Part shown: positions 3,551-57,102 of the stretch, one piece after another
Layout of the letters: every line of letters begins with the position of its first letter
Position numbering within the stretch: position 1 is the stretch's first letter
NCBI GenBank assembly: GCA_016192035.1
Contig: JACPUW010000014.1
Coordinates: 1-64,000 of the forward strand
From: Bacteroidota bacterium
Lineage (GTDB): Bacteria > Bacteroidota > Bacteroidia > CAILMK01 > JACPUW01
Direction of reading: 5' to 3'
DNA: 64,000 bases
Position numbers and translations under genes: made by a program
Notes under the pieces: model-generated
The model's input: only the letters and a program-made list of their open reading frames with translations
Database searches by the model: none
Told to the model about the DNA's origin: nothing

Positions 3551-3560
3551 TTCCCGATTT

Positions 3561-3957
3561 TGTAGCTGCCTTGTCGCTCCGGCACTGCCCACTGGTGGGT
3601 GGCCTGCCGGGGAGGAAAGTCCGGGCAACATAGAGCAACACGCTTCCTAACGGGAAGGCACCGTGGGCGCGAGCCTCCGGTGACGGCCAGTGCAACAGAA
3701 AGCAAACCGCCCTGAACACTCCGGTGCAAAGGGTAAGGGTGAAAGGGTGGGGTAAGGGCCCACCGCGTTTCAAGCAATTGAAACGGCATGGTAAACCCCG
3801 TGTGTTGAAAGACCAAATAGGTCGCGCATTTTGGGTGGCTCGCCCAAGCGGCAGGTGCAAGCCCGCCCGGCGTGATGGGTAGGTCGATAGAGCGCGGCAG
3901 GCGACTGCCCGCGGAGATAAATGGCAAGGCCCGACAGAACCCGGCTTATAGGCTACA
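3561..3957 (+). ncRNA. rnpB: RNase P RNA, bacterial class A
   Basis: The universally conserved 5' core GAGGAAAGTCCGGGC is present at 3612-3626, and the matching 3' core ACAGAACCCGGCTTA at 3934-3948. AGCAAACCGCC-like and GGTAAGGGTGAAAGGGTGGGGTAAG segments typical of class A RNA lie between them. The ends were set by helix P1: TGTAGC at 3561-3566 pairs with GCTACA at 3952-3957. This ribozyme removes 5' leaders from pre-tRNAs. It has its own promoter just upstream and a strong terminator just downstream, so it is an independent unit. Open frames on the opposite strand here are by-products of its composition. Confidence 0.96.
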
Positions 3958-3963
3958 GAAGGT

Positions 3964-3988
3964 GGGGGCTCGCGTAGCCCCCTTTTTT
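3964..3988 (+). terminator. Rho-independent terminator of rnpB
   Basis: A perfect seven-base stem, GGGGGCT with AGCCCCC, closes a five-base loop (CGCGT) and is followed by six T. It lies seven bases after the RNase P RNA end. Confidence 0.93.
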
Positions 3989-53415: not shown

Positions 53416-54342
53416 CTAGTGCAATGGCTTGATAAAGTCCACATTGCGTTTCATGCCCGTCAGTTTTGCCCTTTTTACCGGGCTGCCCTCAAACAGATGG
53501 TCAAAAACGCCGTCATCCATTGACATCCAGCCTTCGGCGGTTTGCCCCATGGCTTCCTCCCTATAGTCAAAATCGGGAGTGCCGTGGGGTTTGGAAAAAC
53601 GGTTCCAGGGGCAAACCTCCTGGCATATATCACAGCCAAAAATCCAGTCTTGGTACGTGCCCCGGTGTTTTTCGGGTATTTCACCTTTATGCTCTATGGT
53701 AAAGTAGGATATACACCTGCTGCCGTCCACCACATAGGGTGCCACTATGGCCTGTGTGGGGCAAGCATCCAGGCACTTGGTACACGACCCGCAGTAATCG
53801 GACATTGGGGCGTCGGGCTTCAGTTCTAAGTCGCTAAGGATCTCGGCAATAAAGAAGTAAGATCCTAAATTGCGGTTTATCAAATTGGAATGTTTGCCCA
53901 TCCAGCCCAATCCGGCCTTGGCAGCCCACACCTTGTCCATCACCGGTGCCGAATCTACAAAACTGCGGGCCTGTACCTTACCGAATTCTAACTCTATGGA
54001 GGCCATGAGGGTTTTGCATTTCTTTTTAAGCACCTTGTGGTAGTCTCTTCCATAGGCATAGCGAGATATGCGGGGCAAGTCTTTGGCCTGGACCTGGTGA
54101 GGGGCATAGTTGAGCAAAAGGGAAATCACGCTCTTGCATCCTTCAAGCAATAATCTGGGATCTAGCCTTTTGTCTTTGTTTTGGGCCATATAGCCCATTT
54201 CGCCATGCATGCCTTGCGCCAGCCACTGGTCTAGGCGGGGCGCTTCACGGTGCAGGTATTCGGCGCTTGAAATGCCGCAGGCATCAAAACCCGCAAGCAA
54301 TGCCATTTCTTTTACCCGGTCTGATGCTTGGGAGACGTCCAT
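53416..54342 (-). CDS. queG: Epoxyqueuosine reductase
   Basis: A 308-residue enzyme that reduces epoxyqueuosine to queuosine in tRNA using cobalamin. YAYGRDYHKVLKKK and PVMDKVWAAKAGLGWMGKH are family-specific. Two [4Fe-4S] clusters are given by CGSCTKCLDACP and CDICQEVCPWN. It begins one base after the ruvB stop, forming an operon often seen in Bacteroidota. Confidence 0.96.
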   Translation of the reverse strand: MDVSQASDRVKEMALLAGFDACGISSAEYLHREAPRLDQWLAQGMHGEMGYMAQNKDKRLDPRLLLEGCKSVISLLLNYAPHQVQAKDLPRISRYAYGRDYHKVLKKKCKTLMASIELEFGKVQARSFVDSAPVMDKVWAAKAGLGWMGKHSNLINRNLGSYFFIAEILSDLELKPDAPMSDYCGSCTKCLDACPTQAIVAPYVVDGSRCISYFTIEHKGEIPEKHRGTYQDWIFGCDICQEVCPWNRFSKPHGTPDFDYREEAMGQTAEGWMSMDDGVFDHLFEGSPVKRAKLTGMKRNVDFIKPLH

Positions 54343-54343
54343 T

Positions 54344-55387
54344 CTAAAACAGTCCTCCAGTTTGGTGCGGGAGCTTGCCCAGGTGGGTAAACGCCTTAGC
54401 GGTGGCCTCGCGCCCCCGGGGGGTCCTTTTCAAAAAGCCCTCTTGTATCAGATAAGGTTCATACACCTCTTCAATAGTGCCCGGATCTTCACCCACGGCG
54501 GTAGCCACGGTGCCCAATCCCACGGGCCCGCCATTAAATTTCTCCACTATGGCAGAAAGGATGCGGTTGTCCATTTCATCAAATCCATTGCTGTCCACAT
54601 TCAGGGCATCAAGGCTGTATTTGGTGATTTTCAGGTCTATATATCCATTGCCTTTCACTTGTGCAAAGTCACGGACCCTTCTAAGCAGGGCGTTGGCTAT
54701 TCTTGGGGTGCCCCGGCTTCTCCTTGCTATTTCCATGGCGGCCTCTTGGTCTATGCCCACTCCAATTATTTTGGCCGAGCGCTTTACTATGGTGGTAAGC
54801 AGGGCGGCATCATAGTATTCTAGCCTCGATTTGATGCCAAACCTGGCGCGCAGGGGAGAGGTGAGCAGGCCAGCCCTCGTGGTGGCGCCCACTAGGGTAA
54901 AGGGGCTAAGGGCTATCTGCACCGAACGGGCATTGGGGCCTGTTTCCAGCATGATGTCAATCTTGTAATCCTCCATTGCCGAGTACAGGTATTCTTCCAC
55001 TATGGGCTGTAGCCTGTGTATCTCATCTATGAACAGAATGTCGCCTGGTTCTAGATTGGTGAGTAGGCCGGCCAGGCTCCCGGGCTTGTCAAGCACTGGG
55101 CCTGAGGTGATTTTAATTCCGGCGCCCAACTCATTGGCTATGATGTGGGCCAGGGTGGTCTTGCCTAGGCCTGGAGGGCCGTGCAGCAGCACGTGGTCCA
55201 GGGCTTCGCCCCTCTGCTTGGCGGCTTGCACAAACACTTCGAGATTTTCAAGTATTTGGCGTTGGCCGGTAAAGTCACCGAAAAGACGGGGCCTTAGCTC
55301 GCGCTCCAACTCCTTTTCGGCCTGGGTCAATTCATCAAAAGGGCGCCTTGTTTCCAAAATGGGGTTTCTGCGTGTTTGGGCTTGCAA
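54344..55387 (-). CDS. ruvB: Holliday junction branch-migration ATPase RuvB
   Basis: A 347-residue AAA+ motor. Walker [10 protein letters not shown], Walker B FIDEIHRL, sensor GATTRAGLL and the winged-helix end ([28 protein letters not shown]) are intact. It drives branch migration with RuvA. It is translationally linked to queG. The region upstream carries two small-RNA-like units on the same strand, the nearer ending 50 bases before the ATG. Confidence 0.98.
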
Positions 55388-55438: not shown

Positions 55439-55566
55439 AAAAAAAAACCCCAGCCGGTCTTGGGAACCAGCTGGGGAAAATTAGGGCTATGAAAAAACTA
55501 GGGCTAATGGGGTCTGAGAAGTTGGCATCTGCCAAAAAGAAATTTGCGCTTGTGCAAATCACTGTG
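55439..55566 (-). ncRNA. Candidate small RNA B upstream of ruvB
   Basis: A minus-strand unit. Transcription should start near 55560. The RNA would hold a 5' hairpin (TTTGC with GCAAA), a 35-base block (55481-55515) identical to that of unit A, then the terminator CCCCAGC/GCTGGGG (55448-55454 with 55470-55476), whose loop includes TCCCAAG, and nine T. Length about 120 bases, no evident peptide. It could be a free small RNA or, with read-through, a leader of ruvB. Confidence 0.6.
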
Positions 55567-55690
55567 CAAATATAGCGAAGCACCTAGTTCATCCAAACTT
55601 TTTAGGGCTTGGGTTGGAAAAAAACCCGGACCAACTTGGGAGTCGGTCCGGGCGGTTAGGGCTATGAAAAAACTAGGGCTAATGGGGTCT
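55481..55690. repeat. Two identical 35-base blocks with TAGGGCTA pairs
   Basis: Positions 55481-55515 and 55656-55690 are identical over 35 bases. Each holds two TAGGGCTA copies (plus-strand reading) separated by TGAAAAAAC. A partial third TAGGGCT is at 55602-55608. Confidence 0.9.
55567..55597 (-). promoter_or_regulatory. Promoter of candidate RNA B
   Basis: On the minus strand TTTG (55597-55594), 19 bases, then TATATTTG (55574-55567): a perfect match to the Bacteroidota promoter consensus. Confidence 0.75.
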
Positions 55691-55737
55691 TAAGGAAATC
55701 AATTCGTCAAACAAAACTTCATATCTGTTTGGTGCAT
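55618..55737 (-). ncRNA. Candidate small RNA A upstream of ruvB
   Basis: A minus-strand unit with the same design as RNA B. A 5' part of about 47 bases can form a hairpin (CAAAC with GTTTG), the 35-base block lies at 55656-55690, and the terminator stem CCCGGACC/GGTCCGGG (55625-55632 with 55645-55652) encloses a loop with TCCCAAG and is followed by seven T. Outside block and loop the two units differ, so this is not a recent exact duplication. Confidence 0.6.
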
Positions 55738-55770
55738 CAAAGGTAAATGGATGCATCTGAATTCGCCAAA
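55738..55770 (-). promoter_or_regulatory. Promoter of candidate RNA A
   Basis: On the minus strand TTTG (55770-55767), 21 bases, then TACCTTTG (55745-55738), matching the phylum's consensus exactly. Confidence 0.72.
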
Positions 55771-55839: not shown

Positions 55840-57102
55840 TTAAGTTTTTTGCTTCTTTTTTTTGGCAGCCGGAAACAGTACGTTGTTGAGAATAAGCCTA
55901 TAACCGGGTGAATTTGGGAACAGGTTCAGGTCGGTGGGCGGCTCATGTACCAGGTGTTGGTAGTCCTCTGGATCATGGCCGCCATAGAAAGTCCACATGC
56001 CTTTTCCGTATTCGCCGTGCACATACCTGGCCTCATTCAGGGCTTTGCTTTCGCCCATCACCAGTACATCAGAGCGCACATACCGCTTGTCAAAGGCCGT
56101 GGTTTGCCCCATGAAGCCCTTGATTACCATAGTGTGGTTTTGGCAAAGCATGGAGGGAACTGGGTCCCACTTGGCTGAAAACTCGAAAAGGGTAAAGAAA
56201 TCGGTTTTCTCATTTACCGTTCGGCTGCGCGGATCTACGTCTATGGTGGAAAATTCATACACGTATGGGTTGGTTTCCAATTGAAAGTCTTTGAAGGCAA
56301 AGCAGTTGTCATAGTTTAGCTTACCCGTGGCATTTGCATCCATAGGGTCGCCGTCAAACATGGGGCCACATATATCCAGTCCATCGGCAGCCAGGGCTAT
56401 ATCGTAGGTGTCGGTGGCAGAGCACATGGCAAAAAGAAACCCTCCACCCAGCACAAACTCTCTAATTTTCTTTACTACGGCCAGTTTTAGCTCCGATGGT
56501 TTGGAGAAGCCCCACTTGGCCGCCGTTTCTTGCGCCTCCCGTACTTCAGCCTTGTACCATTCTTGGTGTTGGTAACTTGACCAAAACTTACCAAATTGAC
56601 CAGTAAAATCTTCATGGTGAAGGTGTAACCAATCATATTTGGACAACTCGTTTTGCATTACCTCATCGTCAAACACCACGTCATAGGGTATTTCGGCGTA
56701 GGTAAGCACCATGGTTACCGCATCGTCCCAGGGTTGTTTGGTCTTGGGGCTGTATATGGCTATTTTGGGCGCTTTCTCCATGCGCACGGCGTCCATGTTC
56801 AGGTCAGGACTGGCTATCTGGTCTTTGATGGAAGCGAATTGGGCATCGGCCAAGATTTCATATCCAATGCCGCGCAGGATGCATTCTTTCTCAAAATCAG
56901 GCTGGTGGACAAAAGCAAAACTCCCACCCCTATAGTTGAGAAGCCACTCAATGGGTACATCCTTGGCTAAAACCCAATATGCTATGCCATACGCTTTTAG
57001 ATGGTTTTTTTGGGCGTCGTCCATTGGGAGCAGGAGGTAGGCTCCATGGGCAGGCACCATATACAGCAAGGCCAAAAGGGTGAATAATAGGGATTTGTTC
57101 AT
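55840..57102 (-). CDS. Conserved exported protein of Bacteroidota, amidotransferase-like fold
   Basis: A 420-residue protein with a signal peptide (LLALLYMVPAHG). IAIYSPKTKQPWDDAVTMVLTYAEIPYDVVFDDEVM and the later FVLGGGFLFAMCSATDTYD resemble class I amidotransferase-like folds. In databases such proteins are often labelled asparagine synthetase B, but no Ntn-glutaminase or AMP-forming synthetase domain is visible and it is exported, so that name is not supported. The tail is Lys-rich. Function unknown; strong conservation of its segments suggests an envelope task. Confidence 0.75.
   Translation of the reverse strand: MNKSLLFTLLALLYMVPAHGAYLLLPMDDAQKNHLKAYGIAYWVLAKDVPIEWLLNYRGGSFAFVHQPDFEKECILRGIGYEILADAQFASIKDQIASPDLNMDAVRMEKAPKIAIYSPKTKQPWDDAVTMVLTYAEIPYDVVFDDEVMQNELSKYDWLHLHHEDFTGQFGKFWSSYQHQEWYKAEVREAQETAAKWGFSKPSELKLAVVKKIREFVLGGGFLFAMCSATDTYDIALAADGLDICGPMFDGDPMDANATGKLNYDNCFAFKDFQLETNPYVYEFSTIDVDPRSRTVNEKTDFFTLFEFSAKWDPVPSMLCQNHTMVIKGFMGQTTAFDKRYVRSDVLVMGESKALNEARYVHGEYGKGMWTFYGGHDPEDYQHLVHEPPTDLNLFPNSPGYRLILNNVLFPAAKKKKQKT

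Follow-up and report, generated by a model that had tools for sequence, protein, structure and literature searches.

A predicted pair of tandem sibling small RNAs with an invariant core upstream of ruvB in one genus of Bacteroidota

RESULTS

Two small-RNA transcription units lie upstream of ruvB

The window analyzed here is the whole 64,000-nucleotide stretch of contig JACPUW010000014.1 from a Bacteroidota bacterium, and reading of its minus strand upstream of ruvB identified two complete small-RNA transcription units between positions 55770 and 55439. Both units are built to the same plan, in which an exact TTTG-N-TANNTTTG promoter is followed by a variable 5' hairpin domain, a 35-base core that is identical in the two units, and a GC-rich terminator. 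The features of the locus are as follows:

55738-55770, minus strand: unit 1 promoter, with TTTG at 55770-55767, N21, and TACCTTTG at 55745-55738; Bacteroidota primary sigma type, from sequence and pattern rarity
55618-55733, minus strand: unit 1 small RNA, about 116 nt, start predicted from the promoter
55691-55733, minus strand: unit 1 5' domain, with hairpin arms CAAACA and TGTTTG that are also present in the RI_201 ortholog (see below) and absent from unit 2
55656-55690, minus strand: unit 1 core, AGACCCCATTAGCCCTAGTTTTTTCATAGCCCTAA; from ACCCC on, 33 nt are invariant in 4 of 4 copies
55618-55653, minus strand: unit 1 intrinsic terminator, a 13-pair stem-loop (55653-55624) whose loop contains CCCAA, then a T run reaching about 55618
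55567-55597, minus strand: unit 2 promoter, with TTTG at 55597-55594, N19, and TATATTTG at 55574-55567; from sequence and the RI_201 ortholog
55439-55562, minus strand: unit 2 small RNA, about 124 nt, predicted start
55516-55562, minus strand: unit 2 5' domain, a 5' hairpin plus a GGCAGATGCC element, common to the RI_201 ortholog and not to unit 1
55481-55515, minus strand: unit 2 core, identical to the unit 1 core
55439-55476, minus strand: unit 2 intrinsic terminator, a 12-pair stem-loop (55476-55448) whose loop contains CCCAA, then a T run reaching 55439
54344-55387, minus strand: ruvB (Pfam RuvB_N/AAA_lid_4/RuvB_C), the downstream neighbor in both genomes, in the same order in RI_201 locus L005

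A preliminary description of this DNA had reported two tandem small-RNA-like units with exact Bacteroidota promoters, an identical 35-base core, and terminators, giving RNAs of 115 to 125 bases. Our reading confirmed this arrangement, and the lengths are also correct, with approximately 116 and 124 nt predicted on the assumption that transcription starts 4 to 7 nt past the TANNTTTG-type TTTG box. When the 2.98-Mb assembly was searched with a 34-base core pattern allowing up to 3 mismatches, exactly two matches were obtained, both at this locus, with none for the reversed-pattern control. The promoter pattern TTTG-N17-22-TANNTTTG is rare in this genome, with 31 occurrences in the 1.716 Mb of strand that were sampled, or 0.018 per kb, and exactly one, correctly placed, was found in each of the four units of the two genomes described below. 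Folding of both units here was better than that of 200 shuffled sequences (z scores of -5.2 and -4.2), with the terminators contributing most.

Upstream of the pair, positions 55840-57102 (minus strand) encode a 420-amino-acid protein with a signal peptide and no Pfam match. On the other side, a QueG-like gene (epoxyqueuosine reductase) comes immediately after ruvB (53416-55387 for the two, minus strand), an adjacency also seen in genome G007 (L045) and apparently in G003 (L047). Within the window, the only Rfam match at gathering level is a bacterial class A RNase P RNA (3558-3964, plus strand, 251 bits).

An orthologous pair in a second genome reveals an invariant core

The core was found in one other genome only, the MAG RI_201 (G001; WGNN01000084.1) of the same genus, where it again occurs in a tandem pair immediately upstream of ruvB. 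The promoters in RI_201 are exact as well, with TTTG-N18-TATTTTTG in unit 1 and TTTG-N21-TATCTTTG in unit 2. The gene upstream of the pair is rhodanese/metallo-hydrolase-like in RI_201, whereas here it encodes the 420-amino-acid protein; thus, the pair is independent of any upstream operon. The downstream ruvB is not necessarily linked functionally to the small RNAs.

Between the two genomes, RuvB is 85.5% identical at the protein level and its gene 71.1% identical at the DNA level, with only 34.5% identity at 139 fourfold-degenerate sites, indicating that neutral sites are nearly randomized. Amid this saturated neutral divergence, 33 bases of the core (ACCCCATTAGCCCTAGTTTTTTCATAGCCCTAA) are identical in 4 of 4 copies, providing a clean seed for target identification. 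The 5' domain of unit 1 is identical to that of RI_201 unit 1 at 35 of 50 positions, and across genomes unit 1 matched unit 1 and unit 2 matched unit 2 (0 of 300 shuffles were as good), while the two 5' domains within one genome bear no resemblance to each other. Because this likeness is between orthologs and not paralogs, the duplication predates the species split, and by the same comparison both siblings were retained with distinct 5' domains after it. The terminator stems differ from those of their RI_201 orthologs by double compensatory changes, three in unit 1 and two in unit 2, that leave all pairs standard. CCCAA is kept in all four terminator loops, compared to 3 of 68 other sampled terminators with CCCAA in or beside the loop. 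Stops interrupt the reading frames through the units, and the frames are not common to the two units; on these grounds, we rejected a small open reading frame (ORF) in the core or 5' domain.

The proposal that the two units are paralogous small RNAs is therefore strongly supported by the ortholog pair in RI_201, the four exact promoters, the compensatory terminator changes, and the invariant core. Sibling small regulatory RNAs are at least two related small RNA (sRNA) genes, each with its own promoter and terminator, and this is what both genomes contain. Altogether, the comparison argues for a pair of sibling sRNAs that is old, transcribed as two independent units, and subject to strong selection. 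The gene anatomy, the orthology of each unit, the extreme selection on the core, and the noncoding nature of the units are established by sequence comparison, from which we also infer that the units are transcribed.

Among the genomes searched, the pair is confined to one genus

The small-RNA pair is confined to one genus among the genomes searched, and this known range is a lower bound, with the searches covering genomes, viral contigs, phages, plasmids, and Rfam. The preliminary description had looked to further copies in related genomes; this expectation was borne out by the tandem pair of RI_201 and failed outside the genus, as the ruvB upstream regions readable in other genomes of the order, including one of the same family, lack the pair by inspection, and pattern and covariance-model (CM) searches of 12 genomes of the order found nothing convincing. 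CM searches of about 395 genomes of the class and 395 of the phylum gave weak scattered matches only, the best with an E value of 2e-4 per genome over 395 genomes. The weak matches that we inspected lay inside coding genes, had no terminator, or covered only core fragments and were rejected as homologs, as was the best match of the same-family genome (L190), which is partial, has a disrupted stem, and showed no promoter. No match was found in viral contigs, phages, or plasmids, and no Rfam family reached its gathering score for the units. The preliminary description had likewise named no Bacteroidota RNA family of such a design, and no family in Rfam fits.

The core is predicted to form a weak hairpin

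The core had been described as a conserved single-stranded block. This holds for ACCCC at its 5' end, which is predicted to be unpaired, but not for the two UAGCCCUA motifs, as UUAG-CC-CUA and UAG-CC-CUAA are able to pair around a GUUUUUUCA loop, giving seven pairs with a CC/CC internal loop and a U-rich 9-nt loop. The hairpin is weak, with the core alone folding at -1.3 kcal/mol; its pairing probability is strong in the unit 2 copies and weaker in unit 1, and RI_201 unit 1 is the one of the four units whose minimum-energy fold differs. The folding predictions thus suggest that the core is probably not simply single-stranded, with the two UAGCCCUA motifs also forming a weak hairpin. Because the core never varies, covariation is uninformative on this hairpin.

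The genome encodes one RRM_1 protein of 109 amino acids with a Gly-rich/Arg-rich tail, which is RbpA/RbpB-like (G000 contig C31, locus L149, 1387-1716, minus strand), and no match to Hfq was found in the genome at the cutoff used. The start regions of the genome show no Shine-Dalgarno signal; hence, an anti-Shine-Dalgarno role of the pair is unlikely.

Pairing of the core with start regions does not exceed controls

In reverse complement, the core is UUAGGGCU AUG AAA AAA CUAG GGCUAAUGGGGU, and the AUG AAA AAA within it suggested that the core is antisense to start regions. Target tests covered approximately 0.86 Mb of the genome (29%), in which genes were modeled crudely. Mean pairing of the core with start regions was better than that of shuffled cores; this advantage was also seen inside genes and was not specific to starts (for the difference between translation initiation region and interior, 35% of shuffles were as extreme). 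In a set of 86 ortholog pairs, strong pairings conserved at start regions numbered 9 compared to 10.5 for shuffled cores, i.e., no enrichment. An earlier apparent conserved pairing (11 versus 4.9) came from overlapping false ORFs and vanished when non-overlapping gene models were used.

Individual candidates fared no better. The purN start in the same-family genome G002 (L072, 527-1093, minus strand) reads TTAGGGCA-ATG-AAAAAA-TTAGC and agrees with the core complement at 19 of 22 bases; no copy of the sRNAs was found in G002, and purN in both sRNA-carrying genomes lacks the match, which was therefore attributed to chance. The msrA ORF (C29), with the strongest AUG-AAAAA start-region duplex, has a doubtful start, and a lipoprotein-like signal peptide is readable on the other strand. 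As start-region complementarity was not above controls, the function proposed in the preliminary description, target pairing or protein binding, stays putative.

DISCUSSION

We favor regulation in trans by base-pairing with mRNAs, after the example of GibS and FopS, and give this reading about an even chance. At each tandem sibling gene, transcription would start from a separate primary-sigma promoter and stop at a separate intrinsic terminator, and the invariant core, with its unpaired ACCCC and a weak, easily opened hairpin containing the two UAGCCCUA motifs and a U6 loop, would pair with a small set of mRNAs. Pairing would probably be near start codons, given the UUAGGGCU-AUG-AAA-AAA-CUAG of the core complement, while the different 5' hairpins and promoters may let the siblings differ in stability and expression. 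Trans action, mRNA pairing, and any RNA-binding partner are what we infer here, the pairing being suggested by a host setting (an RRM_1 protein and no Hfq detected) that resembles that of GibS/FopS. The absence of support from the target tests speaks against trans pairing, and so does the hairpin, in which part of the core would be concealed.

Protein binding is the main rival, although we consider it unlikely. The RNAs would serve as a decoy or sponge, in which the core hairpin and the repeated C-rich unpaired patches titrate an RNA-binding protein, e.g., the RRM protein, with no mRNA pairing. Every one of the 33 core bases is invariant, including those predicted to be paired, with no compensatory change, a pattern at least as compatible with protein recognition as with pairing; the core hairpin is predicted in both genomes, the C-rich CCCAA loop recurs in all four terminators while being uncommon in the others sampled, and an RRM_1 protein is present. 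However, no protein is known to be specific for the core motif, the hairpin is weak on its own, and two copies per genome with one motif pair each are few for a sponge.

Less likely, and in our view rather improbable, is a cis-acting leader, whereby unit 2, of which unit 1 would be a duplicate, serves ruvB as a transcription attenuator or in the manner of a riboswitch. In both genomes ruvB is the next gene after the pair even though the other neighbor changed, the unit 2 terminator lies approximately 60 bases before ruvB, and by inspection ACCCC could pair with the 3' GGGGU of this terminator. This pairing comprises only 3 to 4 pairs in the other copies and thus gives no sign of a conserved antiterminator; no such leader precedes ruvB in the other searched genomes of the order, and each unit has its own promoter and terminator, by which unit 1 ends before unit 2 begins.

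It would be a long shot that the core is dedicated to antisense pairing with AUG-AAA-AAA start regions, forming a genus-specific two-gene translation block with access set by its own hairpin or the RRM protein; if true, an AUG-AAA-AAA antisense system would act on an mRNA class in a bacterium with neither Shine-Dalgarno initiation nor Hfq. That the 33-bp block does not act at the RNA level, but is a DNA element (an operator or recombination site) inside the units or encodes a small peptide, is highly improbable: against the imperfect inverted repeat TTAG..CTA/TAG..CTAA in the core stand the order and spacing of promoter, core, and terminator kept in four copies and the covariation of the terminators on the minus strand, and against the reverse-strand reading ATG AAA AAA CTA GGG CTA ATG GGG stand the stops in core frames that differ between units and the lack of synonymous variation.

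Sequence families have been described for few small RNAs of Bacteroidota, and the invariant core offers a seed for finding targets in a lineage that lacks Shine-Dalgarno initiation and detectable Hfq, with the impact of the pair limited by its known single-genus range. The best Rfam score was that of NsiR1 (RF02399), a cyanobacterial sRNA that is also tandemly repeated, with 35.2 bits for unit 2 only. The RI_201 unit 2 ortholog scored 26.3 bits, unit 1 was not listed, and the match to unit 2 lies mainly in the terminator-like stem, with 38 bases inserted at the position of the core; as unit 2 and its ortholog are both below the gathering score of 39 bits, membership was rejected.

Sibling sRNAs of a comparable tandem kind are known in LhrC of Listeria, and the Neisseria and LhrC siblings carry identical C-rich targeting motifs, like the common core of the pair. 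Tandem siblings in Neisseria are represented by NmsR/NgncR_162-163 (PMC5362039, PMC9973317). These systems are alike in being neighboring, near-redundant sRNAs, whereas the pair described here is unrelated to them in sequence and phylum.

Closer to home, GibS and FopS of Bacteroides target translation initiation regions through a conserved 5' seed (PMC7366714, PMC11697453), and the FopS family, with GibS, comprises paralogous, RbpB-associated sRNAs of Bacteroides thetaiotaomicron (PMC11697453, PMC7366714). Like the pair, they are multicopy Bacteroidota sRNAs with a common conserved block, a variable remainder, a primary-sigma promoter, and a Rho-independent terminator, in a host with an RRM protein and no Hfq (none detected here). 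FopS RNAs are approximately 65 to 70 nt long, with the block at the very 5' end and 12 to 15 scattered copies, whereas the pair consists of two tandem copies of 116 to 124 nt with the core about 45 nt from the predicted 5' end; a conserved block at the 5' end of a 65- to 70-nt RNA is thus not what the pair has. A search of the region against all Rfam families up to an E value of 10 gave no FopS/GibS match, in an Rfam copy whose inclusion of a FopS model is unconfirmed. The pair represents a new family of sRNAs, its kind, that of the sibling sRNAs, being known already.
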